Positions 1,424 through 57,253 of a stretch of 64,000 nucleotides of DNA are shown in pieces. The stretch is from Rhodopirellula sp. P2. GTDB lineage: Bacteria > Planctomycetota > Planctomycetia > Pirellulales > Pirellulaceae. The notes beneath the pieces are model-generated. The model was not told the origin of the DNA and searched no databases. It saw only the letters and a program-made list of their open reading frames with translations. Position 1 is the first letter of the stretch, and every line of letters begins with the position of its first letter. A program made the position numbers and the translations under genes. The stretch lies in the NCBI RefSeq assembly GCF_028768465.1, contig NZ_CP118225.1, positions 5,933,001-5,997,000 of the forward strand. The letters run 5' to 3'.

Positions 1424-2560
1424 TGCAAATTGCAAATTGGTTGCCCCCTAAACCTGAGCCGCTTGACGCTCGCCACGGCTGTCGTCCAGAACCTGAGCCG
1501 CTGGCGCTCGCCACGACTGTCGCGCGCAACCGAGGCTAACGCCAACGGCTCACATGGTGGCTGTCGTTTCTGCCAGCCCAGCCAATTTCAGATCGGCAAT
1601 GTTCACCTTGCAATTTGCAATCGACCAGGACGCACCAGGCCCGGACGGGCCGACACAACCATTGCCGGGGTCGCCAGGCCCCGGAAGCAGGCATGTTCTC
1701 CAAGCATCAAAACCCCGAAGGGGTGACAGAGGCTGCGCACCCAACCTGAGCCGCTGGCGTTAGCCACGGTTGCTACACCCAACCTGAGCCGTTTGGCGCT
1801 CGCCACGGTTGTCGCGCGCAACCGAGGCGAACGCCAACGGCTCACATGGCTGTCCTCGCCTCCCCCAAAATCAGATCTGCAATGCCCACTTTGCAATTTG
1901 CAATCGACCAGGACGCACCAGGCCCGGATGGGCCGACACAACCATTGCCGGGGTCGCCAGGCCCCGGAAGCAGGCATGTTCTCCAGGCATCAAAACCCCG
2001 AAGGGGTGACAGAGGCTGTGCACCCAACCTGAGCCGCTGGCGTTAGCCACGGTTGCTACACCCAACCTGAGCCGTTTGACGCTCGCCACGACTGTCGCAC
2101 GCAACCGAGGCGAACGCCAACGGCTCACATGGTGGCACTCGTTTCTGCCAGCCCAGCCAATTTCAGATCGGCAATGTTCACCTTGCAATTTGCAATCGAC
2201 CAGGACGCACCAGGCCCGGACGGGCCGACACAACCATTGCCGGGGTCGTTAGGCCCCGGAAGCAGGCATGTTCTCCAGGCATCAAAACCCCGAAGGGGTG
2301 ACAGAGGCTGTGCACCCAACCTGAGCCGCTGGCGTTAGCCACGGTTGCTACACCCAACCTGAGCCGCTGGCGTTAGCCACGGTTGTCGTACTGAACCTGA
2401 GCCGTTTGACGCTCGCCACGGTTGTCGCGCGCAACCGAGGCGAACGCCAACGGCTCACATGGTGGCTCTCGTTTCTGCCAGCCCAGCCAAAATCAGATCT
2501 GCAATGCCCACTTTGCAATTTGCAATCGGCCAGGACGCACCCCACCACCCAAGTCTGCCG
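1424..2560. repeat. Tandem array of ~283-330 bp units
   Basis: Units begin with CTCACATGG at 1549, 1841, 2124 and 2454 (spacings 292, 283, 330), preceded by a partial unit from about 1424. Each unit holds a block containing TTGCAATTTGCAATCG, a palindromic block around CCGGGGTCGCCAGGCCCCGG, a block with AAACCCCGAAGGGG, and several copies of a ~28-base sub-repeat AACCTGAGCCG-(C/T)TGGCG-TTAGCC/CTCGCC-ACGG. The extra length between units 3 and 4 comes from one more sub-repeat. The last unit is truncated around 2550. No coding function is suggested; open frames through the units are by-products of the repeat. Confidence 0.9.
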
Positions 2561-2684
2561 ACGATTCCCGTCGCCCGCTCCCTTGGGTTATCATTCCCCC
2601 TGCAAGCGGCAGGGAGCGGCGGCTTCAATGCCAAACACGCTCCCGTCCCACCTCGCCCCCCGACCTTCACCCGGAGCCCATTTG

Positions 2685-4067: not shown

Positions 4068-4265
4068 AATCCGGTCGATTCTGCGATCGATTGACTTTCA
4101 TTCCTCTTGTCAAAACGGGACCCAACGACGACACTTGCGGCCCCGTTTTCAAAATTCTGGCGTGAACACGTGAGTCCAAAGGCGGACATCACGAAGGAAC
4201 ACGCCGCAATTCCCCGCTGCACGTCTCGATCAGTCGCGACGTCTAGCACAACCGTGAAAGTCACG

Positions 4266-4874
4266 ATGGCACGTTACACAGGACCAAAAGCCCGCATCAA
4301 CCGCCGCCTCGGCACGATGCTTTACGAGACAGCCGGCGCAGCCCGTGCGATGGACCGTCGTCCGCAACCACCAGGCATGCACACTCGCGGTCGTCGCCCG
4401 AGTAACTACGGTGCGGCTTTGATGGAAAAGCAAAAGATCAAACACTATTACGGATTGGGCGAACGCCAACTCCGTCGTTACTTTGAGAACGTTGGCCGTA
4501 AATCGGGCAACACCGGGGAATTGTTGTTGCTGATGTGCGAACGTCGCTTGGACAACGTTGTCCGTCGCGTCGGTTTCACCAAGACTCGCCCTCAAGCTCG
4601 TCAGGGCATCACGCACGGTCACTTCTGCGTCAACGGCGTGAAGGTCACCAAGCCCGGCTACATGCTTCGCGCTGGCGACTTGATCGAAGTTCGCGGCCGC
4701 GAAAACCTGAAGAATCTGTACCGTGGCGTGATCGCCAACTCGCCACCAGACGGACTGGATTGGGTCTCGTTCGACAGCGAAACGCTGCGTGCGACCGTCC
4801 TGTCGTTGCCTGGCGCGGTTGACATCAGCCTGCCCGTCGACGCTAACAGCGTCGTCGAATTCTTGTCTCGCTAA
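4266..4874 (+). CDS. rpsD: 30S ribosomal protein S4
   Basis: 202 residues from the ATG at 4266, giving MARYTGPKARINRRLGT; longer in-frame starts from 4107 add residues that do not fit the family. S4 binds 16S rRNA and nucleates assembly of the small-subunit body. The N-terminal four-helix region is followed by the S4 RNA-binding domain (ERRLDNVVRRVGF, then ARQGITHGHFCVNG). It is a single gene here, outside any ribosomal operon, and is followed by a strong hairpin. Confidence 0.98.
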   Translation: MARYTGPKARINRRLGTMLYETAGAARAMDRRPQPPGMHTRGRRPSNYGAALMEKQKIKHYYGLGERQLRRYFENVGRKSGNTGELLLLMCERRLDNVVRRVGFTKTRPQARQGITHGHFCVNGVKVTKPGYMLRAGDLIEVRGRENLKNLYRGVIANSPPDGLDWVSFDSETLRATVLSLPGAVDISLPVDANSVVEFLSR

Positions 4875-4902
4875 CGCGGGTCAACAACGGATTGCTACTC
4901 AT

Positions 4903-4937
4903 CGGCCGCGTGTTCTTCACGCGGCCGTTTCCTTTCC
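4903..4937 (+). terminator. Hairpin terminator after rpsD
   Basis: A perfect 10-bp stem, CGGCCGCGTG (4903-4912) pairing with CACGCGGCCG (4918-4927), has a TTCTT loop and is followed by a T-rich TTTCCTTTCC tract. It lies 28 bases after the rpsD stop. Confidence 0.75.
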
Positions 4938-4970
4938 CGCACTCGTCTCTTTTTTGCTCTGGTTTCAAAC

Positions 4971-6398
4971 ATGCACGCTCCGGTTGTCGTTCTCGGTGGT
5001 GGCCCCGGTGGATACGCGGCGGCTTTCTTGGCTGCTGACGAAGGAATGGAAGTCACAATCGTCGAAGCGGAACCTCGCCTCGGCGGCACCTGCCTGATTC
5101 GAGGCTGCATTCCCAGCAAAGCATTGCTTCACGTGGCCAAGGTCATCAGTGAAGTCGAAGAGTTGAAATCCGAGTGGGGCATCGAGTACACCGGCGGTCC
5201 CAAAATCGACGTCGACGTCGTCCGGGCTCGCAAAGACAAGGTCATCGACAACCTGACCGGCGGACTCGGCGGACTGGCCAAACGCCGCAACGTCACCGTG
5301 ATCCAAGCTCGCGGCTCGTTCGTCAGCTCCAATGAACTGCAACTTGAAGGCGATCACAAATCGATCCCCGAAGGCGGACGCCTGACCTTCGACAAGTGCA
5401 TCATTGCGACAGGCAGCGTCCCCGCCATGCCACCTGCCTTTGACATCGGCAGCGACCGAGTCATGGACAGCACCGGCGCACTCGCCCTCAAAGACATCCC
5501 CGAAAATCTGTTGGTTGTCGGTGGCGGTTACATCGGCTTGGAAATGGGAACCGTCTACGCTCACCTGGGATCCAAGGTCAGCGTCGTTGAACTGGGCGAA
5601 TCTCTGCTTCCTGGTGCCGACCGCGACCTCGTCAAACCGCTGGCGAAGAAAATCGACAAGATGTGCGACGGCCGCGTGTTCCTGAACACCAAGGTCGGCT
5701 CGCTAGCCGAAGACGGTGACAAGGTTGTGGTCAGCTTTGAAGGCCCCAGCAAGTTCGGCACCGAATCCTACGACCGCGTGCTGATCAGCATCGGACGTCG
5801 CCCCGTCACCCGCGGGCTCGGCTTGGAAAACACAAAAGTCGAAGTCAACGAACGTGGTTTCATCGTTTGCGATGAACAACAACGCACGGCCGACCCCAAC
5901 ATCATGGCCATTGGCGATGTCGCCGGTGACCCCATGCTGGCTCACAAAGCCACCCACGAAGGCCGCGTCGCCGCAGAAGTGTTGGCCGGCAAGAACGTCG
6001 CCTTCGACAAAGCGGCGATCCCCGCCGTCGTGTTCACCGATCCCGAAATCGCTTGGGCCGGCCTGACCGAAGGCGAAGCCAAAGCCGCCGGCCGCAAGGT
6101 CGACGTCGAGGTCTACCCTTGGGCCGCCAGCGGTCGTGCACAAGCCATTGGCGTGACCAACGGCTTGACCAAATGGTTGGTCGACCCGGAAACCCATCGC
6201 GTGCTGGGCTGCGGCATCGTCGGCACCGGAGCCGGCGAACTGATCGCCGAAGCCGTGCTGGCAATCGAAATGGGCTGCGAAGTCACCGACATCACCGAGA
6301 CCGTTCACCCTCACCCCACACTCAGCGAAACGCTGATGAACGCCGGCGAAGTCCACTTCGGAACCGCCACCGAGATCTACAAGCCGAAACGGAAGTAG
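4971..6398 (+). CDS. lpdA: Dihydrolipoyl dehydrogenase (E3)
   Basis: 475 residues, the normal E3 length. The FAD-binding GxGxxG is [13 protein letters not shown] at the N-terminus. The redox-active disulfide is C41-C46 in [13 protein letters not shown], where LIRG replaces the commoner LNVG. The NAD-binding motif is [12 protein letters not shown], and the C-terminal interface has the catalytic HPHPTLSE. The enzyme reoxidises dihydrolipoamide for pyruvate, 2-oxoglutarate or branched-chain dehydrogenases or the glycine cleavage system. No E1/E2 genes lie next to it, so it probably serves several complexes. Confidence 0.97.
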
Positions 6399-6709
6399 GT
6401 GGGAGGGGGAAAGTGGCCCAGGAACACAGGGCCACAGGTGGAACCAAGCATGCCACCACCAATCACCAATTTGCAATTTGCAATCCTCCCCCCAACCCTC
6501 GCTTGCAACCCGCAGAAACAATCGCGGGCCATTTCCCCCAGGGCCGTACGACCAAGCATCCAACTGATGCGACGCGTCATGCCGTTCACCATCGGTGGCG
6601 ATTGCCGGCTTGGTTTCTTCCGCTGCCCCGGTTTCTTTGGCAAACACTGGAAATGGCGAGGGGGACAAGGCAAACTGGATGCCTTCTCTCCCGACCACAA
6701 AGGTGTTGC
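6399..6709. other. Intergenic spacer
   Basis: No gene recognised. It contains ACCAATTTGCAATTTGCAAT near 6466, which resembles the TTGCAATTTGCAAT block of the array at 1.4-2.55 kb. Confidence 0.5.
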
Positions 6710-9205
6710 ATGCTCGTCCGCCGACGTTTTGTCCTGACCGCCACGCTTGCCCTGACCGCTGGCTTCTTTGGTCACCTTCCCGGCACAATCTCGCCAGCGA
6801 TGGCAGATTCGACCGAGCAAACTCAAGCACCTCCAGCACCGCCGAAGAAAGATCCAGCGGTCCTATCGCTCCGCCGGCTCTTCAAGACATCCGACTTCCG
6901 ATCGAAAACTCGAACCCTAGTTTGGGACGACACTCAAGACATCCTTTGGGAACGCCAAACCGGCAAAGAAGGCCCTGCCCTGAACCAACTCTCGGTTCCG
7001 GATCGGGAGCCAAGCACGATCGTCCCTCGCGAGATCTTTTTGTTGCCAGCGGAGCCAGCCTCCCCGGAATCCAACGAGAACGAGGCGGCCCCAGCCGACC
7101 CCAAGCCGATCGAGATCAGCCAGTGGACGCTCTCGGCCGACGACCGGTACCTGCTCGTCTACAACAACACCCGCCGAGTCTGGCGACAACACACACGCGG
7201 CGACTACTGGTTGCGAGACGTCAGCGTTGACTCGCCGAACGCAGCCTGGCGAAAAGTGGGTGGCGACGACGCCGCGGAAGCCCAAACCATGTTTGCGACC
7301 TTCGCACCCGATGGACAATCCATCGCCTTCGTTCGCGACAACGACCTGCACTTGGAAGATTGCCAAACAGGCGATCTTCAGATGGTCGCTGGCTCGGACG
7401 ATCCCAAGCTGATCAGCGGAACATTTGACTGGGTTTACGAAGAGGAACTCGGCCTGCGAAACGGATTGCGTTTCAGCCCGAACAGCCAAAAGCTGGCGTT
7501 CTGGCAACTGGACAGCAACGGGGTGCCGATCCAAACCATGATCGACAACACCTCGGAGCGATACGCCCAAACAATTGAGTTTGCTTACCCCAAAGTTGGT
7601 CAAACCAACTCCGCCGCTAAAGTCGGCGTCTGGGACCGAACCAACCAAAAAACCGTGTGGTTGGATCTACCTGGCGACCCGCGTGAGAACTACATCGCCG
7701 CGGTTGACTGGTTGCCCAGTGAGTTCGCACACGCGAATCAGCGATTGCTGATTCAGCAACTCAACCGAAAACAAAATCAAAACCACGTCTTCCTCTGCGA
7801 TGCTGAAACGGGCCACTGCGTCAACATTCACACCGAAGTCAGCGACGCTTGGGTGCGGCACCTAAGAGAACTGCACTGGCTGCCCAGCTCCGTCTTCGGA
7901 AGCGATGCATCGGGCAACTCATCGCCACGTTTGCTGTGGTTGTCAGAACGATCGGGATGGCAACACATCGAAGCCATCGAAATCCCGTCCCCCGATTCCC
8001 TTGAAGAAGAATCCAACCTGCCTTCGCGAATCACGCCGGTGACGGGTGGCTCGTGGGACGTGATCTCGATTGCGGCCGTCGCGAAGGACGGCAGCCACAT
8101 CGACTTCATCGCGTCGCCGGAACAGCCTTCCCAACGAGCGCTCTATCGCGTGTCCCTCCAGCAAGGTTTGGGCGGACAGCTCGCGACGACCCCGCAACGC
8201 GTCTCCCCGGAAAAAGGCGGCACCTACTCCTATTCATTCAGCCCCACCGCTCAATACGCCGTGGAATCGTGGTCGGACTTCAACTCCGCTCCGGTGCAAA
8301 GACTCGTCCAACTGCATCCCTACAAACAACTGAAAACGTTCGACGACAACGAGAAGCTGGAAGACGCCCTTGAGAAGCTCGCTCCGGTCCACACGGAATT
8401 TGTGCGACTGCCCATCGGTGAATTCACGGCTGATCCTGCCTCCAAGGATGTGGAACTGGATGTGTGGATCATGATGCCGGTCGGGAAGGATGGAACCACC
8501 AAGACCCTGGATCCGAAGAGCACACCGCTGCTGGTTCATGTCTACGGTGAGCCCGCGGGCCAGACCGTCTTGGATCAATACGGCGGAACCACTTACCTGT
8601 GGCATCGCCTGCTGACTCAGCATGGCATTGCTGTTGCAAGTGTCGACAATCGCGGCGCCAACGCGCCTCGCGGAAAATCCTTCCGCCAATCGATCTACAA
8701 AAAAATTGGGCGTCTTTCGATCTCGGATCAAGCCCACGCGACGCAAGCGATGCTGAAGCACTTTGCTGCTCTTGATCCCGAGCGAGTTGGATTGTGGGGC
8801 TGGAGCGGCGGCGGCTCCTCAACCCTCAACGGGCTGTTCCAATTCCCAGAGCTGTACTCGATGGGAATCGCCGTCGCGCCTGTTCCGGACCAACTGGATT
8901 ACGACACGATCTACCAAGAACGCTACATGGGATTGGTCACCGAAAACCGCGACGCGTTTGTGGCGGGGTCACCGATCACGCATGCCAGCGGTTTGTCCGA
9001 CCCCTTGCTGCTGATCCACGGAACAGCCGATGACAACGTGCACTACGCGTCGTCGGCGCGTCTGATCAATCGCTTGATCGCAGAGAACAAGCAGTTCCAG
9101 ATGATGGCGTATCCCGGACGCACCCACTCGGTCAGCGAAGGCGAAGGCACACGCTATCACCCGCGGACGATGATGACTAACTTCATCCTCCAGCACCTGA
9201 AGTAA
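6710..9205 (+). CDS. S9 family prolyl oligopeptidase / dipeptidyl peptidase IV-like
   Basis: 831 residues from the ATG at 6710; the frame is open much further upstream inside lpdA, but the signal peptide (MLVRRRFVLTATLALTAGFF, cleaved after ...MADS) sets the start. The N-terminal beta-propeller resembles DPPIV (YLLVYNNTRRVWRQHTRGDY; FDWVYEEELGLRNGLRFSP). The C-terminal alpha/beta hydrolase has S699 in GWSGGGSS, the acid in HGTADDNVHY (D774/D775) and H806 in GRTHSVS. The double Glu (YEEELG) that binds the substrate N-terminus in DPPIV is present, favouring dipeptidyl release from secreted peptides. It stands alone, followed by a repeat array. Confidence 0.93.
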   Translation: MLVRRRFVLTATLALTAGFFGHLPGTISPAMADSTEQTQAPPAPPKKDPAVLSLRRLFKTSDFRSKTRTLVWDDTQDILWERQTGKEGPALNQLSVPDREPSTIVPREIFLLPAEPASPESNENEAAPADPKPIEISQWTLSADDRYLLVYNNTRRVWRQHTRGDYWLRDVSVDSPNAAWRKVGGDDAAEAQTMFATFAPDGQSIAFVRDNDLHLEDCQTGDLQMVAGSDDPKLISGTFDWVYEEELGLRNGLRFSPNSQKLAFWQLDSNGVPIQTMIDNTSERYAQTIEFAYPKVGQTNSAAKVGVWDRTNQKTVWLDLPGDPRENYIAAVDWLPSEFAHANQRLLIQQLNRKQNQNHVFLCDAETGHCVNIHTEVSDAWVRHLRELHWLPSSVFGSDASGNSSPRLLWLSERSGWQHIEAIEIPSPDSLEEESNLPSRITPVTGGSWDVISIAAVAKDGSHIDFIASPEQPSQRALYRVSLQQGLGGQLATTPQRVSPEKGGTYSYSFSPTAQYAVESWSDFNSAPVQRLVQLHPYKQLKTFDDNEKLEDALEKLAPVHTEFVRLPIGEFTADPASKDVELDVWIMMPVGKDGTTKTLDPKSTPLLVHVYGEPAGQTVLDQYGGTTYLWHRLLTQHGIAVASVDNRGANAPRGKSFRQSIYKKIGRLSISDQAHATQAMLKHFAALDPERVGLWGWSGGGSSTLNGLFQFPELYSMGIAVAPVPDQLDYDTIYQERYMGLVTENRDAFVAGSPITHASGLSDPLLLIHGTADDNVHYASSARLINRLIAENKQFQMMAYPGRTHSVSEGEGTRYHPRTMMTNFILQHLK

Positions 9206-31936: not shown

Positions 31937-32115
31937 ACGAAGCGGAACCTCTGAACGGGCGAGTTTCCAAAGTCACCCGACTTCTGGTGCCTCGCCCGAT
32001 CTTCGTCCAACACGGCTCTCTGAATCCCTCCTCTCGATCTTTCGATTCAGCCATGACTGTGACTCACAATCAGTCGAACCTCCTCCGCCTCCCTCACCCT
32101 TCCCGTCCATTCCCA

Positions 32116-34017
32116 ATGCCGTTTCGCTGGAAACGACTGGGCAGGTGGGTGATCGTGAGCGCGCTGTTGCTGCCCTCGTTCGCCCTTGCTGATGATTCCA
32201 AACTGGCCTCCTCCACAGGCCTGCTGTTGCAACAAACGCACGGTGCGGAATGGGAAGAAGCAATTGCCACGGCGCGCACCATCGCCGCCAACGAGAGCTC
32301 CTCGATTCGGTCCATCGCAGCGTTGGTTCAATTGGCTCGCCGCTTGGACGCCACCGGCAACCAAGCCGAAAGTGCAGCGGACGTGCACGACATGGCCGCC
32401 TACGCCGTGATGCGTCTGAAGGAAAACGATCCCGATGCGCTGACCGCGGATCAAGCCGCCAATTTGTTGCTCAGCGCCGCCAACGGTTTGTCGCGATCCG
32501 GCCGTCACCTGGACGCACACCGCTGGCTCGACGAAGTCCAGCAGTTCGGCGTGACCACCCCGGAATGGACAGCGACCTGCATGACCGTGGCCTCGGGATT
32601 GCTGGACGAAGGCCATCTCGACCAGGCTCAATCGACCTACCAGATGGTCATCCAAAGCGGCGACAGCCCGCAACTGGCGACCGCCCGATTGGGTCTCGCT
32701 TGGTGCACTGCCATGTCGGGCGAAGACGACCTGGCTGCCCTGACTGCGATCGACCAGTTCTTGCAGCACCATGCCGATCATGCGGATGTGCCTTCCGCTT
32801 TGCTGATGAAGATGTCCTGCCAGTTTCGGACCGGTCAGTCCGACCCGGCCGATCAAACCCTGCAGCAACTGCTCACTGAGCATGCGGATTCAGGGGCCTG
32901 CTTGCAAGCCATCGTCGCGCATTGCAACAACCATCCCTTGGAACCGTGCGACGGTCCCCTGGCAGAGCATTTGATCCAGCACGCTGATCGACTCGTCGCC
33001 TCACCCCAGTTCACATCGCTGTTGAAACCTGCCGCCATAGGGTTGTTGGTGGCAGCCGAACAAGAGCACGCCGACGCTGAGCAAGCGTTTGCCAATGCGA
33101 TCGCAACCCGCGACGAATCGGGCGACACGACCGCCGCGGTCCTCGAACACCTGACCCGCAACGACCGAGACGCGGCCGCGCAACGGATCGCGCTGCGTTG
33201 GATCTCACCCGTCGCCACCACCAGTCCAAATTCGGACCAAGACGCCGAACCCGTCATCACCGCCGGTGTTCGCGAATCAGCGTGCCGCTGGGCGGGTCGA
33301 ACCTCGAACTGGTCCATTCTCGCGATGGCCGCCCAGGACGAAGAATCGTACTTGGATGGAAACGCCCAAACCTCCCAACTTCGCGGACGCAACCTGCACG
33401 TCGAACGCCTCTTCGCAGAAGCCTTGTTGCAAACCGGCGATGCCAAGTCGTCGCTGAAATGGTGGCAACGCATCGTCGACGAAGGCGGCGCGGACGACTT
33501 CCCGACCCTGCTTCGCCTGGCCGAAACCGCCTCCTCATCTGGCTCGATCACCGAAGCCGCTCAGCGACTCGCCGCCGCTCGTGCAGCCATCTCTCCCACA
33601 TCGCCTCAGTCGGCCTTGGTGAACTTGCTGGCTGCGGATGTGGAAATTCGCCAGTTGAACTTTGACCGCGGGCGTTCGCTGCTCGAAAGCGTCGTGAGAC
33701 TCGGGTCGGCCGACGAAGACGCTCGAGGCCGAGCCCAATGGATGATTGGCGAAACGTACTACATGCAAGAACGTTTTGGCGAAGCGATTGATGCCTACCG
33801 ATTGGTCGAAGGCATCGGTGGCGAAGGCCAATGGACGGCCGCGGCCCTGGTGCAAGCCGGCAAATCGTTTGAACAATTGGGGCGGACACGCGAAGCCGCC
33901 GTCTGCTATTCCACTTTGGTGCGTCGCTTTGCGAACAGCCAACATGCGACCGGAGCCCGCCGCCGATTGGCCGCGTTGTCACCGGACGCCTCCTCTGAAT
34001 CCCCACTTCGACGATGA
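32116..34017 (+). CDS. Exported TPR-repeat protein
   Basis: 633 residues from the ATG at 32116, which starts a clean signal peptide (WKRLGRWVIVSALLLPSFAL, cleaved near ADD); an earlier ATG at 32053 is possible. The body is all helical with repeated ~34-residue units (for example LDEGHLDQAQSTYQMVIQSG; AQWMIGETYYMQERFGEAID; LVQAGKSFEQLGRTREAAVC). This is a periplasmic scaffold like CpoB/YbgF-type TPR proteins that work beside Tol systems. Its stop overlaps the next gene's start by 4 bases (ATGA), so it is translationally coupled to the ExbB-like gene. Confidence 0.88.
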   Translation: MPFRWKRLGRWVIVSALLLPSFALADDSKLASSTGLLLQQTHGAEWEEAIATARTIAANESSSIRSIAALVQLARRLDATGNQAESAADVHDMAAYAVMRLKENDPDALTADQAANLLLSAANGLSRSGRHLDAHRWLDEVQQFGVTTPEWTATCMTVASGLLDEGHLDQAQSTYQMVIQSGDSPQLATARLGLAWCTAMSGEDDLAALTAIDQFLQHHADHADVPSALLMKMSCQFRTGQSDPADQTLQQLLTEHADSGACLQAIVAHCNNHPLEPCDGPLAEHLIQHADRLVASPQFTSLLKPAAIGLLVAAEQEHADAEQAFANAIATRDESGDTTAAVLEHLTRNDRDAAAQRIALRWISPVATTSPNSDQDAEPVITAGVRESACRWAGRTSNWSILAMAAQDEESYLDGNAQTSQLRGRNLHVERLFAEALLQTGDAKSSLKWWQRIVDEGGADDFPTLLRLAETASSSGSITEAAQRLAAARAAISPTSPQSALVNLLAADVEIRQLNFDRGRSLLESVVRLGSADEDARGRAQWMIGETYYMQERFGEAIDAYRLVEGIGGEGQWTAAALVQAGKSFEQLGRTREAAVCYSTLVRRFANSQHATGARRRLAALSPDASSESPLRR

Positions 34018-35081
34018 ATTCACATCGAAACGAGACTCGTCCCAACGTCAACCGGGTGCGTCCAACGCTCGCGGTTGCGTCGCGATTTTTACCGGTCGTC
34101 GTGCTGACGATGGGGTTGTCGATTTGGTCGAACTGGCATGGCGCCGTCATCGCTCAAAACTACGGCAACCAAGGTTTCAACCAACCGCGAAGCAACAACG
34201 GGTTCGGGAACAACTACAACGCGCCCTACAACTCCGGCGGAACTCAAAACTCCTTTGGCGGGGGGCAATTTGGTGCCTCCCAACCCGTCGCCCAAATTGC
34301 ATCGAACAACACCGGCGGCAACGCGGGTGGCATGTCGATCCCAGAAGCCCCCGCGACGGATCAACTCGCGGGAGAAGGCGAAGCGGCCGACGCATCCGAA
34401 GCCAGTTGGGAACCACCCGCATTCATCAGCAAGATCGCTGAAGGCGGCATGCTGATGATCCCATTGGCGGTCTGCTCCCTGATCGTGTTGGGGCTGTCGA
34501 TGGAACGCATGATCGCACTGCGTCGCAGTCGCGTGATCCCCAAACCATTCGTTCGTCGATTCACCGAATGCGTCGAAGACGGCCAACTCAGCTATGAAGA
34601 AGCCACTTCGATCTGTGACGAATTTGATTGCCCGGTGGCGGAAGTCTTCCATGCCGCGGTCCGTCGATGGGGCCGACCGATGATGGAAATCGAACAAGCC
34701 GTGATTGATGCGGGCGACCGTGTGGGCGATTCACTGCGTCGTTTCCTAAGAGTCTTCCATGCGATCAGCAACGTGACACCGCTGATCGGATTGCTCGGCA
34801 CCGTCCTGGGAATGATTCAAGCCTTTGAAACCATTGCGGACCCCAGTGCGGGCGAAAGCGATCTGCTCGCTTCAGGAATCAGCACCGCGCTCATGACCAC
34901 CGCCGGCGGACTGAGCGTCGCGATTCCCGCGTACTTGGCCTACATGTACTTCGGCGCCAAATCAGATGGCTACCTGGGCGAGATCGACAAACTCTGCCAA
35001 CGAGTGATCGATTGCATTTCCGCCGAAGGACTGGAAAACGCAGGCACGGCCAAGGCTCCTCGTAAACGACGGGCCGCCTGA
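34014..35081 (+). CDS. MotA/TolQ/ExbB proton channel protein with long N-terminal extension
   Basis: 355 residues. A signal-like helix (LPVVVLTMGLSIWSNWHGAV) is followed by ~110 residues rich in N, G and Q (NYGNQGFNQPRSNNGFGNN) and then the ExbB/TolQ core: helix MLMIPLAVCSLIVLGLSMER, the cytoplasmic loop, and two helices with TPLIGLLGTVLGMIQAFETI and ALMTTAGGLSVAIPAYLAYM. This core forms the pentameric, proton-driven stator that powers TonB or TolA. The N/G/Q-rich insert is unusual. The gene overlaps its upstream neighbour by 4 bases and its downstream neighbour by 1. Confidence 0.93.
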   Translation: MNSHRNETRPNVNRVRPTLAVASRFLPVVVLTMGLSIWSNWHGAVIAQNYGNQGFNQPRSNNGFGNNYNAPYNSGGTQNSFGGGQFGASQPVAQIASNNTGGNAGGMSIPEAPATDQLAGEGEAADASEASWEPPAFISKIAEGGMLMIPLAVCSLIVLGLSMERMIALRRSRVIPKPFVRRFTECVEDGQLSYEEATSICDEFDCPVAEVFHAAVRRWGRPMMEIEQAVIDAGDRVGDSLRRFLRVFHAISNVTPLIGLLGTVLGMIQAFETIADPSAGESDLLASGISTALMTTAGGLSVAIPAYLAYMYFGAKSDGYLGEIDKLCQRVIDCISAEGLENAGTAKAPRKRRAA

Positions 35082-35479
35082 TGAAACGCAATCGCGGAAC
35101 CGAAGAGGCCACGATCAACCTGACACCGATGATCGATGTGGTGTTCCTGCTGGTGATCTTTTTCATGGTCAGCAGCAAAATGGATTCCAACGACAGCGGC
35201 GTGCAAGTCAACGTGGCTTCTGCCGACATGCAGTCGATGGCCCGCACACCCGATCAACGGATTGTCGAAGTCCGCAACGATGGTTCGCTGTTGTTGGACG
35301 GCACGCCAATGTCGTCCGAACAATTGACGGAAACGTTGAGGCAACAACATTCGGTCTATCCCGGCCTGCAAGTGTCCGTGCGTGGCGACAGCGACAGTTC
35401 GCTCCATCACGTCGTGAAAGTCATGCGTCAAATTGAACTCGCTGGCGTGCAAAAGATGGGCGTCAGCGAACGACGCTAA
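35081..35479 (+). CDS. ExbD/TolR family protein
   Basis: 132 residues: a short cytoplasmic N-terminus, one membrane helix with the proton-carrying aspartate (INLTPMIDVVFLLVIFFMVS) and a periplasmic ~90-residue domain (RIVEVRNDGSLLLDG...LQVSVRGDSDSSLHHVVKVM). It forms the stator with the ExbB-like protein and couples proton flow to movement of a third partner. Its start overlaps the ExbB stop (TGATG). The next gene follows after 18 bases. Confidence 0.95.
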   Translation: MKRNRGTEEATINLTPMIDVVFLLVIFFMVSSKMDSNDSGVQVNVASADMQSMARTPDQRIVEVRNDGSLLLDGTPMSSEQLTETLRQQHSVYPGLQVSVRGDSDSSLHHVVKVMRQIELAGVQKMGVSERR

Positions 35480-35497
35480 CCCATTTTCGATTCGCTC

Positions 35498-37396
35498 ATG
35501 CCAACCGTTTCCTCCCCACCGATGATCCCGGTCGCCGACGCATCCGACGCGCCGCCGATCGCTTCGTGGGACAACTTGGAAACCCTTTGGGCCGACCCCA
35601 ACATCGTGCGGGTGGTCGCCCTCATCGCGGTGACGTTCTTGGTCATCACAATCGTTCTGTTCCGCCGCCGCAAAGCCAGCGGTCGCGGGGCGGCGATTGT
35701 TTGCTTGATTTTGTCCGTTGTTTTGCACGGCGTGTTGATCCTCTACGTGCCCAAGCTGTCCGTGTTTTGGTCCGGTGGTGGTCCGGCATCGGATTCCGCC
35801 GCCAACGCCGGTGCGGCTGACATTGCGGTGTCGATGTTCGATCCCGAGATGTTGGAAACGCTGCAGGATTCCGCTGAAACGCTCGCCCAACCATCGCCGC
35901 TGGCAGCACTCAAACTGCCCGAACCGTTGATCCCGGAACGCGAGATTGAAGCGGACTCGTCCGAGCCCCTCGCGGCAGACGAGGTCGCCCCCGAACCGGA
36001 ATCCGATCCCACCCCGACGCCCACTGAGATCCCCTTGCCGTCGATGCCGGCCGTCCTCGCTTCTGCCGCGCTGCCCACGCAACCCGCACCGACCGAGTCA
36101 AGCGAAACCGTCCCGGCCGACGTTCTGGATTCCAGCATCGACGATTGGTTGCAAACGGCCTTGGCAGACCCTATCGCGGAACCCGATCAAGAATCCACTC
36201 AGCCATCCTCGCCGGAAATGGCTGCCCCGCCATCAGAGGCTGGCGAATCCAACACGATTCGCTCCACCGAGACCGAAGCCATCGCCCAGATCGCCTCGGT
36301 TCGTCCAGCTGCTTCCCTGCCCGAAGAACGTTCCGCTGGAACGATCGATGAGGACTTCGCCTCACGAACCGGAGCGGCCAAAGCACATGCCCTGATTCAA
36401 AATGGTGGCGACGCCGACACGGAAGCCGCTGTCGAAGCCGCACTGAAGTACTTGGCGTCGCAACAACGCAGTGACGGAGCCTGGGACCCCAAAACAACCG
36501 GCGCCGGTCAAGAGCGTGCCCCCCTGGGACTGCATCGAGGCGGAGCGGGTCGCAATGCAGAGACCGCGATCACGGGACTCGCCTTGCTGTCGATGCTGGG
36601 TTCTGGCCACACCCACCAAGAGGGCGAACATCGCGACACCGTCTACCGAGGCCTCGCGTTCCTGCTGTCCCGGCAACGCGCCGATGGCTCTCTGGCCAGC
36701 AACGCGTCCGTGTACGCGGCACACTACAGCCACGCAATGGCAGGTCTGGCTCTTGCCGAAACCGCTGCGATGACTGCCGATCCCTCCGCCATGGAAGCCG
36801 CCCGCCGAGCGGTTGCTTACACCCGTTCGATGCAACATCCCGTCACCGGCGGATGGCGGTACAACCGTGGCGACGCCGGCGACCTCAGCCAACTTGGATG
36901 GCAAGCCCTCCTGATCGACTCGGCGGATCGTTCGGGTGCCGCCCCTCTCAATCGTCGCATGTCCGACGGCATTGCCCGCTTCTTGGATTCGGTTCGACGC
37001 GGTCGTGCCGGCGGGCAAGCTTGCTATCGTCCGGGTGAACCCACATCGCCGACGATGACGGCGGAGGCTCTGGCAACACGTTTGTTGATCGGGCAAAAGC
37101 TTCCCGACGCCACGATCCGCGAAGCCGAATCGGTCTTGCTGACCAACCTGCCCGGCCAAGGCACCGACAACTATTACTACTGGTACTACGCCACGATGGC
37201 GCTGCACCAACTCCAGGACGACGCCTGGGAAACCTGGAACGCAGCTCTCAAGCAACGTCTGCTTTCGACGCAGCTACCCGATGGGTCCTGGTCCGATCAA
37301 TCCCTGTGGGGCGGCTACGGCGGCACCGTCTACACCACGGCGATGGCGACGCTGTGCCTGGAAAGCTACTACCGACACTCTCGCCGGCCCGAATAG
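35498..37396 (+). CDS. TonB-like membrane anchor fused to a prenyltransferase/squalene-oxidase-fold domain
   Basis: 632 residues. Two membrane helices come first (~38-55, VRVVALIAVTFLVITIVLF; ~67-86, AAIVCLILSVVLHGVLILYV). The second carries S-V-V-L-H, the S-x3-H arrangement that TonB uses to contact ExbB/ExbD. A ~220-residue acidic, proline-rich linker follows. From ~305 come alpha/alpha repeats of the squalene cyclase/prenyltransferase fold: ALKYLASQQRSDGAWDPKTT, GLAFLLSRQRADGSLASN, MQHPVTGGWRYNRGDAGDLS and LSTQLPDGSWSDQSLWGGYG. No DxDD cyclase motif is seen, so a catalytic role is doubtful. Position directly after exbB/exbD is where tonB usually lies. Confidence 0.88.
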   Translation: MPTVSSPPMIPVADASDAPPIASWDNLETLWADPNIVRVVALIAVTFLVITIVLFRRRKASGRGAAIVCLILSVVLHGVLILYVPKLSVFWSGGGPASDSAANAGAADIAVSMFDPEMLETLQDSAETLAQPSPLAALKLPEPLIPEREIEADSSEPLAADEVAPEPESDPTPTPTEIPLPSMPAVLASAALPTQPAPTESSETVPADVLDSSIDDWLQTALADPIAEPDQESTQPSSPEMAAPPSEAGESNTIRSTETEAIAQIASVRPAASLPEERSAGTIDEDFASRTGAAKAHALIQNGGDADTEAAVEAALKYLASQQRSDGAWDPKTTGAGQERAPLGLHRGGAGRNAETAITGLALLSMLGSGHTHQEGEHRDTVYRGLAFLLSRQRADGSLASNASVYAAHYSHAMAGLALAETAAMTADPSAMEAARRAVAYTRSMQHPVTGGWRYNRGDAGDLSQLGWQALLIDSADRSGAAPLNRRMSDGIARFLDSVRRGRAGGQACYRPGEPTSPTMTAEALATRLLIGQKLPDATIREAESVLLTNLPGQGTDNYYYWYYATMALHQLQDDAWETWNAALKQRLLSTQLPDGSWSDQSLWGGYGGTVYTTAMATLCLESYYRHSRRPE

Positions 37397-38405: not shown

Positions 38406-39989
38406 ATGCCTGATTGGTTGACATTGCTGCCGGTGATCCTGCCAACGTTCCTCGTGCTCGCGGCGTTGGTTCCCGACGTGGTTGGCCGCCGGCATGGCTT
38501 TCGATGGCGGCAGTGGATCACTTTCATGGTCGCAGCGCAGTGCTTGGTGGCCGTCGCCATGCTTTTGATTCACCTGGTCACGTGGGTTCCCAGTCCGATC
38601 GCGGAATTGAGAATTGTCGAGGTGTTCCAGCCGACCACTTGGGTCCTCTACGACGGTCTCTCAGGTCTGATGCTGATTCTGGTCAGCTTCATCGGCTGGG
38701 CCACCTGCCAGTACTCGATTCGATATCTCGAGGGGGACATCCACCAAGCTCGCTACTTTCGATTCAGTGCGGTCTCGATCGGAGCGGTCAGTTGGATGAT
38801 CGCCTCGGGAAACCTGATCGGATTCGCCTTTGGCTGGGTGGCCATGAACTTGGGTTTGCACTCCTTGCTGTTGCTGAAACCAGACCAATCTGGTGCAACT
38901 CGCGCCGCCTGGACCAAGTTCGCTATCAACCGGATTGGCGATCTGGCCTTGTTCGCAGCCTTCGGTCTGCTCTCGGTCAAGTTCGACTCGCTGGTGCTGG
39001 TCGACATCTTTGAATCCGCCCAGGCGATGCAACTCGAGGCTGGATCCCCACCGCCAATCTTAGTGGCCGCCTGCTTCCTGCTGTTCATTGCCGCAGCCAG
39101 CCAATCGGTGCAGTTCCCATTTCACTCTTGGCTCCCGGAGACGCTTGGTTCGCCCACCCCAGTCTCCGCGCTGATGCATGCGGGTATCGTGAACGCCGGC
39201 GGATACCTGGTGATTCGATTCGCAAATGTGTTCGCACTGTCACCGCTGTCGATGAACACGATGGCGGTGGTGGGACTGATCACGACGCTGGTCGCTGTGA
39301 CGGTGCTGATGACCCAGACCAGCATCAAGAAGTCACTGGCCCATTCCACCATCGCACAGATGGGATTCATGATGCTGCAGTGCGGTTTGGGAGCCTCTGT
39401 CCCTGCGACCGTCCATCTGGTCGCACACTCGCTGTACAAATCCAACGCCTTCCTACGCTCCGGCAGCGTTATCAGCGATCGAAAAGCGATTGCCGGTGCC
39501 CGGGAATGGAATCGATCGCTCGCTTGGTACGAAACTGGATTCGCCTTCACGGTCAGCTGCACGCTCTTTGCCGCCACATGGATACTGTTCGGTCTCTCGC
39601 CCACTGAAAAGCCCGGCGGCTGGATCCTTGGCAGCATTCTGTGTTTGGCTTTGACGCACTGGATCGCCGAAGCCATGCGGTCGGGATCCCGACGCTTGGT
39701 GCTGCAGTCGACGGCCACGGCGGCGTTGATCTGCTTTCTCTATGTCACCGGATTCCTCGCAACCGACGCTTTGATTTCCAACGGCCTCCCCACATCAACT
39801 TCGCTCCTGAGCAGCCGCGTCGTGGGAACCGTGGTCGTGCTGGGATTCGTCGGCCTCACCTTCTTGCAGACCCGTCTCGGTTCCACCACTCAGCCTGCGT
39901 GGGCTCAAACCATGCAAGTTCACGCGTCCAACGGCTTTTACATCGAACATGGAATTCGTCGCGTGTTCCGGTTGCTCGCCACCTCCTGA
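38406..39989 (+). CDS. dabB: DabB: NuoL-like proton channel subunit of the DAB inorganic-carbon transporter
   Basis: 527 residues, about 13-14 membrane helices, of the complex I NuoL/MrpA family. [20 protein letters not shown] is the hallmark P-V-S-A-L-(M/I)-H loop, and the lysine-bearing helices ([27 protein letters not shown]) are present. Alone such a protein could be a Na+/H+ antiporter part, but the gene directly downstream (72 bases) encodes the DUF2309 protein, so this is DabB. It supplies proton-motive force to drive CO2 hydration by DabA. The ATG follows GAGGAGACTTGAGAG. Confidence 0.92.
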
Positions 39990-40061: not shown

Positions 40062-42773
40062 ATGAAGACCATCCATCACCAACCGAAGTCCGCTTCCAGT
40101 CACGCGTCGAACGACCAACCGCTCAGCGTGTTCATGCCCGCCGCGTACGAAGACCCACATGTCTATCGACAACTCGAGGAGTTGCTGAATCAAGTCTGTG
40201 ACGCGGTCTCTCCGGTTTGGCCGCTCAAAGATTGGGTCGCAGTCAATCCGTACGCAGGTTTCACGGAACGCTCCTTCTTCGAATCCCGAGACCACCTGCA
40301 AGTCTTCTCGCAGTGTGAACTGTTGCCGACGATGGAACACTTTGCCTCGCAATTTCAATCCGGAGCACTGCTGCCGACGCACATCGAAGCGGCGGTGAAC
40401 GAGACCGCCACGGCAGTCCAGAATCATGGATCCGACGAGGTTTCGTGTGTTGTGGATGAGGTCCTGGAAGCATTGACGAAGTCTTCGTCTCCAACGGCAT
40501 CGAAAGATCCCTTCCCAGCGAAATCCAAACCGCTTCCAAAGATCGCGACCATTGCCGCACGACTGACGGCCCACGGACCGGTGGACTGGACCGAAATGGT
40601 TCACCAAGAGATCGGCAAGCATTGCTCGGCTCACTACGACGAAGGCCAAGCGAAGTGGGGCAGTCCCTGGCAAAACCTGCCTCTGTATCAAGCCTGGCGA
40701 AACACCGCACGGTGTGATCGGGGAATCGAAATCCTGGGACTGCCTGGCTTTCGAAAGTTTGTGAACGACCTGCCTCACACGGCCGAAGCGACCATCGTTC
40801 ATTTGCTGCAACGAATGAATCTTCCCCGATCGCTTTGGGAAACGTTTCTGTTGGCACATGCCTTTTCGATGCCTGGTTGGAGCGGTTGGACCAAGTACCA
40901 AGGATTGCAAACGGACCCCATCGGAACCGGCAAATTCCAACACGACGACTTCCGTGGCTTCTTGGCGATGTCATTGGCCTACGACGTCGCGATCTCAGAA
41001 GCCTTTGCCTTTGAAGTCGATTGGGAATCGCTGCTGAATGCTCAAAAGCTAAACGCTGCTTCCTCCGACGACTCCTGCAAAGCGTTCCGAAAGATCCTTC
41101 TGCGAGCGACGGAGATTGCCTATCGAGATCAGCTGCTCGACTCGCTGCCGTCGCTGCCACCACACGGCCCCGATGCGTCCGAATCGGCCGGCAATCTCGA
41201 TCAACCGGCGTCGCGTCCGATCGCACAGATGGCGTTTTGCATTGACGTTCGATCCGAGCGATTGCGAAGGCACCTAGAAGGCGTCTCCGCTGACATCGAA
41301 ACGATTGGTGTGGCAGGGTTCTTTGGGCTGCCATTCGAATACATTCCGCTGGGCCAAGATTCCGGCGATGTCCACGCCCCCGTCTTGCTGAAATCGAGCT
41401 TTTCACTGCAGGAAAAGGCATCCGACTGCACCGCCTCTTGCTCCGCCCAGAATCCTCTTGCCCCGCACAATTCCACCTCCACGTCCGCTGAGGCAGCACG
41501 TCGAACAGAAACCAGCACCTGGAAGAAACGGTGGAAGCAATTCCAAACGTCCGCCGTGGGCTGCTTTTCGTTCGTGGAAACTCTGGGACTGCTCGATGGC
41601 GTCGAGTTGGTCGGTCGGTTGCTGGGGAAGAACCTCCGTCAGTCGGGTCACCCCAACCAAGCTGGAGTGACCGCGGAGGGACAAACGCTCTCGTTGGATC
41701 TGGATGGACTGTTGCAACAAGGCATCGATCTGGAACAACAAACGGACATGGCCGAAGGCCTGCTGACCGCGATGGGGCTGACCAACCACTTCGCCCCGCT
41801 CGTTGTTTTATGCGGGCACGCCAGCCAAACCGACAACAACGCGATGTCCGCTGGATTGGACTGCGGCGCCTGCGGCGGACACTCCGGTGCCCCCAACGCT
41901 CGGTTGGCCGCCACGCTCTTGAACGATCGACGAATTCAAACGCGATTGGCCGAACGAGGCATTGAGATTGGTGCCGACACTCATTTCCTGGCCGCCTGGC
42001 ACAACACCACCACCGACCAAATCGAATGGCTCGACACCGAAACCATTCCCCCCTCGCATCAATCTCGAGTTGCTCAGTTGCAAAGCCTTGGCAACGAAGG
42101 CAGCGAATTGACTCGCTGCGAGCGGCAGCCACTGTTGGACGAAAGTTCTTCGGAATCGTTGGCCGCTCGGGCCACCGACTGGTCGCAAACACGCCCCGAA
42201 TGGGGACTGGCGGGCAACGCCAGCATGTTGATCGGCCCGCGAAGTTTGACCCGAGAAATCGCCTTGGACGGTCGAGCCTTCCTACACAGCTACCATGCCG
42301 CGTCCGACCCCAGCGGTCGTGTTCTGGAATCCATCCTGACCGCCCCGATGGTCGTCGCACACTGGATCAACATGCAGTACTACGCCTCGACCGTGGATTC
42401 GCATCATTTCGGCAGCGGTTGCAAAACCGTCCACAACGTGGTCGGCCAATTTGGAATCTTCTCCGGCGACGGTGGCGATCTGCAGGCTGGTCTGCCGGAA
42501 CAATCCCTCCGAAATGGCGAGCACATCGAACACATTCCGTTGCGACTGCAGACCGTGGTGGTTGCCACGCGAGAGGCCATCGATCGAGTGATCGCCGCTC
42601 ACACCACGGTACGCAATTTGGTGCAAAACGGTTGGGTGCACTTGGTCGCTATCGAAAACGATCAAAAGTACCGCTACCAACCAACCGGATCTTGGGTTCA
42701 ACTGCCGACCAACACCGCCTCCTGCACCTCTCAGCGTGAAAAAACATGGCAGCTCGTGGGGTCGGCGGAATGA
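40062..42773 (+). CDS. dabA: DabA (DUF2309): zinc carbonic-anhydrase-like subunit of the DAB transporter
   Basis: 903 residues. The DUF2309 zinc-site residues described for DabA are all present: C393 and D395 in MAFCIDVRSERLRRHLE, H586 in VVLCGHASQTDNN and C601 in LDCGACGGHSGAPNAR, with the same 15-residue step from H to the last C. WKDWVAVNP-like (LKDWVAVNPYAGF) marks the N-terminus and QNLVQNGWVHLVAIE-like sequence the C-terminus. DabA hydrates CO2 to bicarbonate one way in the cytoplasm, coupled to DabB. It gives CO2 concentration for anaplerotic carboxylation in heterotrophs or for autotrophy. Confidence 0.95.
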   Translation: MKTIHHQPKSASSHASNDQPLSVFMPAAYEDPHVYRQLEELLNQVCDAVSPVWPLKDWVAVNPYAGFTERSFFESRDHLQVFSQCELLPTMEHFASQFQSGALLPTHIEAAVNETATAVQNHGSDEVSCVVDEVLEALTKSSSPTASKDPFPAKSKPLPKIATIAARLTAHGPVDWTEMVHQEIGKHCSAHYDEGQAKWGSPWQNLPLYQAWRNTARCDRGIEILGLPGFRKFVNDLPHTAEATIVHLLQRMNLPRSLWETFLLAHAFSMPGWSGWTKYQGLQTDPIGTGKFQHDDFRGFLAMSLAYDVAISEAFAFEVDWESLLNAQKLNAASSDDSCKAFRKILLRATEIAYRDQLLDSLPSLPPHGPDASESAGNLDQPASRPIAQMAFCIDVRSERLRRHLEGVSADIETIGVAGFFGLPFEYIPLGQDSGDVHAPVLLKSSFSLQEKASDCTASCSAQNPLAPHNSTSTSAEAARRTETSTWKKRWKQFQTSAVGCFSFVETLGLLDGVELVGRLLGKNLRQSGHPNQAGVTAEGQTLSLDLDGLLQQGIDLEQQTDMAEGLLTAMGLTNHFAPLVVLCGHASQTDNNAMSAGLDCGACGGHSGAPNARLAATLLNDRRIQTRLAERGIEIGADTHFLAAWHNTTTDQIEWLDTETIPPSHQSRVAQLQSLGNEGSELTRCERQPLLDESSSESLAARATDWSQTRPEWGLAGNASMLIGPRSLTREIALDGRAFLHSYHAASDPSGRVLESILTAPMVVAHWINMQYYASTVDSHHFGSGCKTVHNVVGQFGIFSGDGGDLQAGLPEQSLRNGEHIEHIPLRLQTVVVATREAIDRVIAAHTTVRNLVQNGWVHLVAIENDQKYRYQPTGSWVQLPTNTASCTSQREKTWQLVGSAE

Positions 42774-55678: not shown

Positions 55679-57253
55679 CTACAACGGGAACGCGTCTTCC
55701 TCTTCCTGCTCGGCGTACAGTGGCATGTGCCGGTAATAGACCTCAAGGATCATGGTCGCGAACGAAGTGGCGGCCAATCGGCCGCCTTCTTTGGGACCGG
55801 TGTGCGTGCCGGCTTGTGGGAAGTACCAACTGCCTTTGCTGCCACCGGATTGGGATTGAGTTTCCACCAACCAATCCCGCAGCTCCGCGTTGAACTTGTC
55901 CCATTCCGGGCCACCGACATGCCGAAGCACTTGGGCAGCGTAGTAGTCGTAATAGATGTTGTCTTTGCGAACGCCGATGTCGACCAACGTCTCCACACCC
56001 TTTTGCAATCCGGGGTGATTTTTGTCCCACCCCAAGTACATGCGGCACAACAACCCCGCGGCGGTGCAAGCCGGGCGGACTCGTGTGGAAGGCGATTGAT
56101 AACCGTACATCGCACCGCCGTTGGATTGAACCTTGTCCAAAAACAACGTGGATCCATTGATCGTTTGTGGCGGCACAATCAGGTGCCCCATGTAAGCACT
56201 CTTCAGCGCCATCACTTGCCACCCCACCACGGACGTGTCACCGCCCGAAGCATCGCGGGGCTGATAGCGCCAGCCACCGTCAGCACACTGAGCGGTGACG
56301 ATGTAGTTGATCGCTTGCTGAGTCGGAACGGCCAGAGCGGGGTCCTCGGTCATTGCGTAGGCTTCGCTCAGAACAATCGCCGCCAAACCGTGCGAGTACA
56401 TTCCGTTGCCAGCTGATTCCGACAAATCCAACACAGGCAACCCGCGGACCGTGCCTTTCTTTCCGTTGGCGATCAAGAACAACAAACCACCTCGAACGAC
56501 GTTCTTGAAGTCACCGGCATAGTGTGTTTGCCCGGCACCTAAGAACGGCAGCAAGGCCATCGCGGTCGCTGCGTTGACCGCTCCGACTCGCTTGGGTTCA
56601 CCGGGATCGCCGCATTTGCCGTTGCAAACCAGGTTGTGTTGAAACGTCCATCCGCCGTTGGGGGCTTGGTGCAGTGCCAACCACTTGAGCGCCTCGGTCA
56701 CCGCTGCTTCGCTGGCGGCCGACCCCCCATACTCACGCAACAGCTTCTTCTTCATGTCCACCGAACGGCTGTCCATCGCGGTCATCGAAACCGACGACAA
56801 CGTTTGCAACGTCTGCGCGACGGGAGCCATGTCGGACGCCAAATCGGTCATCTCCATTGGCACCGAGGGCACGTCCATCGCCATCTCAACCTGCATCGTT
56901 TCGGTTGTGTCGAGTGCTTCGGAAAGCTCCACCGGTTCGGAGAACTCTTCCATCTCGACCATGTCACCGGGATCGATCTGTTCGATTTGGAACTCTTCGA
57001 TCTCGGGGCCTTCTTCGCCGTTCGATGTGGCCGACAACACGTTCACGATTTTGACCGGGTCGGCAAACGTGACCAAACCAAGAATCAAAATCACTCCGAT
57101 GTGGAACAACGTGCTGATCAACCACGCGGGAGCGGCCTTCAAGAATCCCAAGCGACGACGAGGGGCAGCCTCTTCCGCGCCTGGCGCTTCATCTGCCAAT
57201 GTTGCGTCAACAAGGTCGTGATCTGGCAAGGACGTTTCCGAAACCGTGGCCAT
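55679..57253 (-). CDS. TonB-like membrane anchor fused to a prenyltransferase/squalene-oxidase-fold domain (paralogue)
   Basis: 524 residues from the ATG at 57253. One membrane helix (~43-64, WLISTLFHIGVILILGLVTF) contains S-T-L-F-H, the TonB-type S-x3-H. A strongly acidic linker follows (EEFQIEQIDPGDMVEMEEFS). From ~180 the alpha/alpha repeats appear: ALKWLALHQAPNGGWTFQHN, INYIVTAQCADGGWRYQPRD and VETLVDIGVRKDNIYYDYYA. No DxDD motif is seen. It has the same design as the protein at 35498 but no adjacent exbB/exbD, so it may share that stator. Confidence 0.88.
   Translation of the reverse strand: MATVSETSLPDHDLVDATLADEAPGAEEAAPRRRLGFLKAAPAWLISTLFHIGVILILGLVTFADPVKIVNVLSATSNGEEGPEIEEFQIEQIDPGDMVEMEEFSEPVELSEALDTTETMQVEMAMDVPSVPMEMTDLASDMAPVAQTLQTLSSVSMTAMDSRSVDMKKKLLREYGGSAASEAAVTEALKWLALHQAPNGGWTFQHNLVCNGKCGDPGEPKRVGAVNAATAMALLPFLGAGQTHYAGDFKNVVRGGLLFLIANGKKGTVRGLPVLDLSESAGNGMYSHGLAAIVLSEAYAMTEDPALAVPTQQAINYIVTAQCADGGWRYQPRDASGGDTSVVGWQVMALKSAYMGHLIVPPQTINGSTLFLDKVQSNGGAMYGYQSPSTRVRPACTAAGLLCRMYLGWDKNHPGLQKGVETLVDIGVRKDNIYYDYYAAQVLRHVGGPEWDKFNAELRDWLVETQSQSGGSKGSWYFPQAGTHTGPKEGGRLAATSFATMILEVYYRHMPLYAEQEEEDAFPL

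Follow-up and report, generated by a model that had tools for sequence, protein, structure and literature searches.

A predicted force transducer with a cyclase-fold end behind TPR, ExbB-like and ExbD-like genes in Rhodopirellula sp. P2 and other planctomycetes

To our knowledge, the only rods known to be driven by motors of the ExbBD type are TonB, TolA and, since 2025 and as a prediction, proteins with a von Willebrand factor A (vWA) domain. The vWA force transducers are the closest precedent for the locus described here. Section 8 of Williams-Jones et al. 2025 (PMC12204202) describes them as TonB-anchored proteins with foreign ends, encoded behind tetratricopeptide repeat (TPR), tolQ and tolR genes in bacteria that include Planctomycetes, and expects more of the kind. 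In a 64,000-nucleotide stretch of the Rhodopirellula sp. P2 genome (NZ_CP118225.1, positions 5,933,001 to 5,997,000; hereafter the window), genes for a TPR protein, an ExbB-like protein and an ExbD-like protein are followed by a gene for a 632-residue protein that joins a TonB-like anchor helix to an end domain of the squalene cyclase/prenyltransferase fold. Based on sequence, we predict that the four genes very probably encode a trans-envelope machine driven by the proton motive force, with the 632-residue protein as its motor-driven transducer.

As described in PMC12204202, the vWA transducers share with this protein a TonB-like Ser/His helix, a disordered linker, a foreign globular end and adjoining TPR, tolQ-like and tolR-like genes; they differ in the vWA end and in often having two tolR-like genes. 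The main text of that paper does not contain the words squalene, prenyltransferase or toroid, and no cyclase-fold end with an ExbBD anchor was found in the open PMC literature at abstract level. The original prediction, made from the letters of the window, had held that no function was described for this architecture. This stands for the cyclase-fold end and fails for the TonB-like anchor with a foreign end, which was published in 2025 for vWA proteins (PMC12204202). The cyclase-fold end, or hand, would therefore be new, and the foreign-ended anchor is known.

The 632-residue protein resembles TonB in its Ser-x3-His helix, in-to-out orientation, a strand like the TonB D-box, a proline-rich linker and its place behind exbB and exbD. 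It differs from TonB in having an extra helix before the anchor, an alpha/alpha toroid at the end and no TonB C-terminal domain (no Pfam match to PF03544), in a genome without TonB-dependent receptor matches. Likeness to the Tol-Pal system lies in the motor, whose best NCBIfam matches are tolQ and tolR (both below cut-off), in the TPR protein, which is weakly similar to YbgF/CpoB (tol_pal_ybgF, TIGR02795, E 4.9e-19, 69.1 bits, below the cut-off of 90.1), and in PD40 propellers carried by transducers outside the class of Rhodopirellula. The PD40 repeat also occurs in TolB. Unlike Tol-Pal, the 13 genomes of the genus contain no TolB_N, and the end domain is not that of TolA. A Pfam scan of the protein gave cyclase-type models only, and no vWA domain. 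With the toroids of cyclases and prenyltransferases (8paj, MstE 6sbd, AprG 9lfq) the end domain shares its fold and three Q-x-G-x-W-like motifs, and it differs from them in its low identity (14-18%), in lacking D-x-D-D (0 of 81 aligned sequences) and in being joined to a motor anchor.

The four genes lie closely packed on one strand (Table 1). The stop of the TPR gene, for which a start at 32053 is an alternative to the one used here, overlaps the ExbB-like start by 4 bases, the ExbB-like and ExbD-like frames share one base, and an 18-base gap precedes the gene of the 632-residue protein. The original prediction had read the locus in this way, with S-V-V-L-H in the second of two membrane helices, an acidic, proline-rich linker and a C-terminal alpha/alpha domain of the cyclase/prenyltransferase fold without D-x-D-D. 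Coordinates and Pfam agree with the layout, an AlphaFold2 (AF2) model and the composition with the helix (residues 62-91) and the linker (28 Pro, 37 Asp+Glu and 5 Lys+Arg in 193 residues), and the model together with Foldseek and the alignment with the end domain.

Table 1. Features of the operon and of the 632-residue protein, in positions of the window.
Feature	Position	Strand	Basis
TPR protein	32116..34017	+	PF13174 2.1e-11; N-terminal hydrophobic stretch resembling a signal peptide
ExbB/TolQ-like motor subunit with N-terminal extension	34014..35081	+	MotA_ExbB E 4.7e-26
ExbD/TolR-like motor subunit	35081..35479	+	PF02472 E 1.5e-27
632-residue anchored cyclase-fold protein, proposed force transducer	35498..37396	+	Pfam, NCBIfam, alignments, AF2 model
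First membrane helix, residues 34-56, proposed periplasm to cytoplasm	35597..35665	+	AF2 helix, positive loop after it
Second membrane helix, residues 62-91, with C69-x3-S73-x3-H77	35681..35770	+	AF2 model, alignment
S73-V-V-L-H77 codons, TonB/TolA-type Ser-x3-His	35714..35728	+	Sequence, alignment
Disordered acidic Pro-rich linker, residues 92-284	35771..36349	+	Low predicted local distance difference test (pLDDT) score, composition
D-box-like strand I-A-V-S-M-F-D, residues 109-115, H77+32, then Pro	35822..35842	+	Pattern from PMC10907165
Alpha/alpha toroid of squalene cyclase/prenyltransferase fold, residues 285-627, proposed hand	36350..37378	+	AF2, Foldseek to PDB

The related loci are the best 80 of at least 576 confirmed in the scan and are therefore the closest relatives; planctomycete taxa are named in the titles of 79, and one (L104) is titled only 'bacterium'. 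The anchor was compared in 76 sequences, comprising the window and 75 of these loci, with five left out that have no helix region (L070, L071, L082, L098, L109). Conservation of the Ser/His pair had been set beforehand as the test that could refute the reading: His77 is present in all 76 sequences, and Ser73 in 71 with Ala in the remaining 5. C69, one turn before Ser73, is found in 69 of 76, and the neighboring helix positions vary among hydrophobic residues. Before residue 290, H77 is the sole invariant column both in alignment A1 (29 sequences: the window and 28 of the 30 loci L009-L038, of which L009 is the window itself and L012 was omitted) and in A2 (68 sequences: the window and 67 of the 80 loci, without six that are anchor-less or cut and seven near-copies). 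The gene and its motif are found in each of the 13 genomes of the genus, every time with an ExbD-like frame immediately upstream. Of the 30 loci L009-L038, all but L025, which has Ala-x3-His, carry Ser-x3-His, and all but L031, whose upstream DNA is only 204 bases long, show ExbD upstream. In a control set of 120 hydrophobic segments from mechanically called non-cyclase frames (the window and seven regions of its own genome), S-x3-H occurs in 2. Since all 76 aligned sequences have [S/A]-x3-H at the corresponding position, we rejected a chance match.

The loop that connects the two helices carries a net charge of +3 to +7 in all 76 sequences and is therefore predicted to be cytoplasmic by the positive-inside rule, which orients helix 2 as in TonB. 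This would place the Ser/His pair at the cytoplasmic end of the helix, where it also sits in the TonB-ExbBD and TolAQR structures discussed in PMC12215075. Genuine TonB proteins of three members of the genus carry SIGLH, SLAAH and SCAVH in the helix.

The gene order TPR, ExbB, ExbD, transducer on one strand is kept across other planctomycetes (63 of 80 loci), as is the histidine of the anchor. The other 17 loci lack only a TPR match (8), have ExbD only (5) or have none of the three (4), and all nine with ExbD only or none have less than 1.5 kb of upstream DNA. Where more than 4.5 kb is available (59 loci), ExbB and ExbD are present in 59 of 59 and the TPR gene in 55. No further neighbor family recurs in more than 12 of the 80 loci. 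The ExbB-like protein has TolQ (9avi) and ExbB (7ajq) as its best solved relatives, and the ExbD-like protein also has solved relatives (TolQ, ExbB and ExbD chains across both subunits). The ExbD motor residues and most of the ExbB ones appear to be retained: the membrane Asp of ExbD (Asp19) is kept in 77 of 77 sequences, and in ExbB, counting rows with a letter, T263 is kept in 71 of 71 and T296, its partner in the pore Thr pair, in 72 of 72, as is P305.

The linker contains a further TonB feature that the original prediction had not named. The TonB D-box, as described in PMC10907165, is a Phi-z-Phi-z-Phi-Phi-z pattern of hydrophobic and polar residues that is gripped by ExbD dimers, and in E. 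coli TonB, which has its histidine at H20, it is 45-ISVTMVT-51 (PMC12215075). The window protein has a D-box-like I-A-V-S-M-F-D followed by Pro. We scanned the region 18-49 residues after the anchor His in the 76 sequences. The strict pattern occurs in 26, the window included (mean 1.1 and maximum 6 in 500 shuffles), with 26 matches in 2432 residues of the scanned region versus 1 in 12693 of the remaining linker. It starts at H+25, the E. coli spacing, in 16 of the 26, at H+32 in 5 (among them the window protein) and at H+23, H+24 or H+27 in 5. A looser Phi-z-Phi-z-Phi pattern occurs in 45 of 76 (mean 7.8 and maximum 16 in 300 shuffles), with 49 matches versus 9 in the remaining linker. By eye, a P-W-E/N-like motif recurs about 45-60 residues past the anchor His in distant orthologues (e.g., L077, L087 and L108); it is absent from the first 60 residues after the His of the window protein.

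The AF2 model of the 632-residue protein has a mean pLDDT of 76.9 overall, and residues 285-627 form an all-helical toroid in it, for the most part at pLDDT above 90 (blocks mostly 92-99). Sequence alone gives consistent though weak evidence for a cyclase fold (PF13243, E 4.1e-5, below cut-off; TIGR01787, 4.9e-10, far below cut-off), and searching PDB sequences with the domain gave a best E of 0.005 with scattered repeats. With a limit of E 0.001, Foldseek found 49 PDB chains, among them AprG (9lfq, E 1.0e-5) and squalene-hopene cyclase (8paj, E 1.5e-5). The relatives, with identities of 9-18%, include squalene-hopene cyclases, MstE, AprG, GH76 enzymes, sugar epimerases and a complement C4 chain. 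Terpenoid synthesis was set aside as the function because the D-x-D-D motif is missing from 81 of 81 sequences. D462-x-S464 is invariant in the domain and may or may not correspond to the D-x-D-D place; invariant polar and aromatic residues also include H412, R454 and E523.

Variants were found at increasing distance. In L157-L172, 16 loci that belong to the same class and order, Ser-x3-His lies in the helix in 15, and L170 could not be judged; 13 have an ExbD match (doubtful in L170) and 5 an ExbB match. In the long proteins L173-L176, which come from outside the class, the anchor lies beyond the first 350 residues. From outside the class we fetched 11 loci (L191-L197, L203-L206), picked for strong matches, and all 11 have the TPR, ExbB and ExbD genes together with a Ser-x3-His transducer. 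These transducers, of 928-1755 residues, begin with a helix and an extra stretch, continue with another helix and the anchor helix, and close with a linker and an end domain; the extra N-terminal stretch is a PD40 propeller by Pfam in all seven tested. L203 (5996-8779, plus) and L204 (5834-9085, plus) have the propeller in front and no cyclase fold that could be found; their end domain is like CarboxypepD_reg (1.9e-10 in L204; 1.7e-6, below cut-off, in L203). As the cyclase fold is missing here with the same anchor, it is the anchor that stays constant and not the fold of the end domain. L205 (566-5830, minus) encodes, behind TPR, ExbB and ExbD genes, a 1755-residue fusion of PD40 repeats with two cyclase-fold domains.

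In a tree of 53 domains, all 46 rows labeled as motor-linked fall on one side of one branch, so that the label amounts to one change; the 46 include four without a clear ExbD match (L164-L166 and L170), and the other 7 rows come from one genome. The branch has a support of 91/74 and is found in 89% of 200 bootstrap trees. A survey of the phylum found a match in 335 of 393 genomes, counting any cyclase domain and not operons. A sample of the other class gave 23 of 31, where many of those listed are frames some 350-450 residues long that look unanchored.

The Rhodopirellula sp. P2 genome itself has eight ExbD matches at five places. It also has a second operon of TPR, ExbB, ExbD and transducer genes (L177, G000:C1:7115000-7127000, 1668-9188), in which the transducer has 928 residues and the motif SIFVH. 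Three proteins of this genome with one hydrophobic segment (L181, L182, L183) also keep the Ser/His motif, and four unanchored cyclase-fold proteins (L043-L046) have no such motif in a membrane helix. An anchor-only profile gave five matches below 1e-7, all training sequences; the next three (E 0.04, 0.16, 0.34) are not significant alone, and two of them combine a Ser-x3-His helix with a vWA-like domain, which is clear in one protein (PF13768 3.5e-9) and weak in the other (PF13519 0.01). This pair (L212, 679-2265, minus; L214, 1333-2505, plus) looks like vWA transducers of the kind described in PMC12204202. In the window, a gene at 55679-57253 (minus) encodes a 524-residue anchored cyclase-fold protein (SQHop_cyclase_C 8.7e-6) with S-T-L-F-H in a single helix and no ExbB or ExbD gene adjoining; it is a candidate transducer that may use a motor in trans. 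At L178 (4229-5518, minus), a cyclase-fold frame (SQHop_cyclase_C 7.9e-12) lies divergent from an ExbD gene pair and has one hydrophobic segment without Ser-x3-His.

Several observations weigh against a motor-driven transducer. In ExbB, the Glu position, which the alignment to TolQ puts two residues past the Gly-Ile in the last helix, is T291 and variable, with Glu in 6 of 72. The Trp of the first transmembrane helix of E. coli ExbB touches His20 of TonB, and no conserved Trp is present four residues after the equivalent Ser (S155, in 65 of 70; equivalence by eye). Conservation of the SHLS motif does not extend to its later residues (Leu, Ser) in the 76 sequences. The strict D-box pattern is missing in 50 of 76 and the looser one in 31. 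A third pattern, which allows Ala, discriminates less well: it occurs in 30 of 76 sequences, in up to 13 after shuffling, and has 24 matches elsewhere in the linker. Motor genes are not always at hand: L164-L166 have no ExbD match, family f21 (ten class-level loci) is an ExbD-transducer pair with no ExbB found adjoining, and the Rhodopirellula sp. P2 genome has three anchored cyclase-fold proteins (SMVVH, SMVFH, STLFH), one of them in the window, with no motor genes beside them. In favor of the transducer, profile models found, next to the eight ExbD matches, no TonB_C (PF03544), TonB-dependent receptor or TolB_N (PF04052) in this genome, in a search that did not include PF13103 or TolA models; such Ton/Tol models match in only 3 of 14 control genomes, and divergent versions may therefore be missed. 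PF00691 (OmpA-type, Pal) has two matches in the genome, one of them possibly MotB. Across the 13 genomes of the genus, TonB_C is found in 3 and TonB-dependent receptors in 10 (8 above cut-off).

From the observed gene order, conservation, motifs and domain model we infer how the parts would couple. ExbB and ExbD would by homology form the inner-membrane motor, with proton flow turning ExbD inside ExbB. Helix 2 would hold the 632-residue protein at the motor rim, ExbD would grip the D-box-like strand, and a pull on the linker would move the toroid and its bound partner. The toroid would replace the C-terminal domain of TonB and TolA. The TPR protein, which the original prediction had cast as a scaffold, is a conserved operon partner; it could be periplasmic and perhaps serve at the opposite side as a clamp or adaptor. 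The original prediction of a proton-driven machine acting on a periplasmic alpha/alpha domain draws support from the Ser/His pair, the D-box-like strand and the kept motor residues.

As to the job of this machine, we lean tentatively, and short of an even chance, toward a Tol-like role, in which the machine would energize a contact of the inner membrane with the outer envelope, and away from import of the TonB type. The reasons are the weak YbgF/CpoB likeness of the TPR protein, the fused propellers, which are more Tol-like than Ton-like, and the lack of a Ton receptor match in the genome. Import, in which the toroid would dock on a non-classic outer-membrane transporter and open it for large substrates, seems somewhat unlikely. 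The transducer does occupy the tonB position behind exbB and exbD with the same anchor chemistry, and the Foldseek list contains sugar-binding relatives of the fold. Against this, the genome lacks a TonB-dependent receptor match, no outer-membrane protein family recurs near the operon, and the TPR partner and the PD40 propellers outside the class recall Tol over Ton.

The protein could instead be a membrane-tethered periplasmic enzyme, a toroid acting on glycans or lipids whose helices are a mere tether while ExbB and ExbD serve another protein. Most of the nearest solved relatives of the fold are enzymes (AprG, squalene-hopene cyclases, MstE, GH76 mannanases, sugar epimerases), and the many invariant polar and aromatic residues of the domain are active-site-like. 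We nevertheless regard a tethered enzyme as improbable. A simple tether needs no invariant intramembrane His, no D-box-like strand at TonB spacing and no motor genes, which are present wherever upstream DNA is long enough; two loci have the same anchor and operon without the cyclase fold; and D-x-D-D is missing throughout. It may also be an enzyme that is pulled by the motor. Least probable of all, to a degree that we give it hardly any weight, is that Ser/His is a decayed or decorative motif, kept because the protein's own two helices pack against each other: the protein has two helices, unlike TonB, and C69 is also nearly invariant, but the pair is kept in the one-segment proteins and in the single-helix TonB proteins of the genus as well, and its conservation follows that of TonB and TolA, in which both residues contact ExbB/TolQ (PMC12215075).

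If the motor-driven transducer is real, an enzyme-fold toroid would be a further kind of rod, carried in one operon across many planctomycete genera, and the hand of the motor would be modular. It would give a concrete candidate for energizing the outer envelope in planctomycetes without detectable TonB, TonB-dependent receptors or TolB, and single-residue changes at Ser73 and His77 make this question directly testable. A wider view, which we hold possible though not yet probable, is that Planctomycetota keep an old motor-driven envelope machine that replaces Ton and Tol. It would combine one anchor with exchangeable hands (toroids, carboxypeptidase-regulatory-like domains, vWA), with TolB-like propellers fused in some lineages and some hands (the three motorless proteins) sharing motors in trans.

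Downstream of the operon, the window contains two genes on the plus strand (38406-39989 and 40062-42773), one for a Proton_antipo_M protein (1.2e-39) and the other for its partner DabA (PF10070, 9.6e-245). By these matches, the pair is predicted to encode a DAB-type inorganic carbon transporter.

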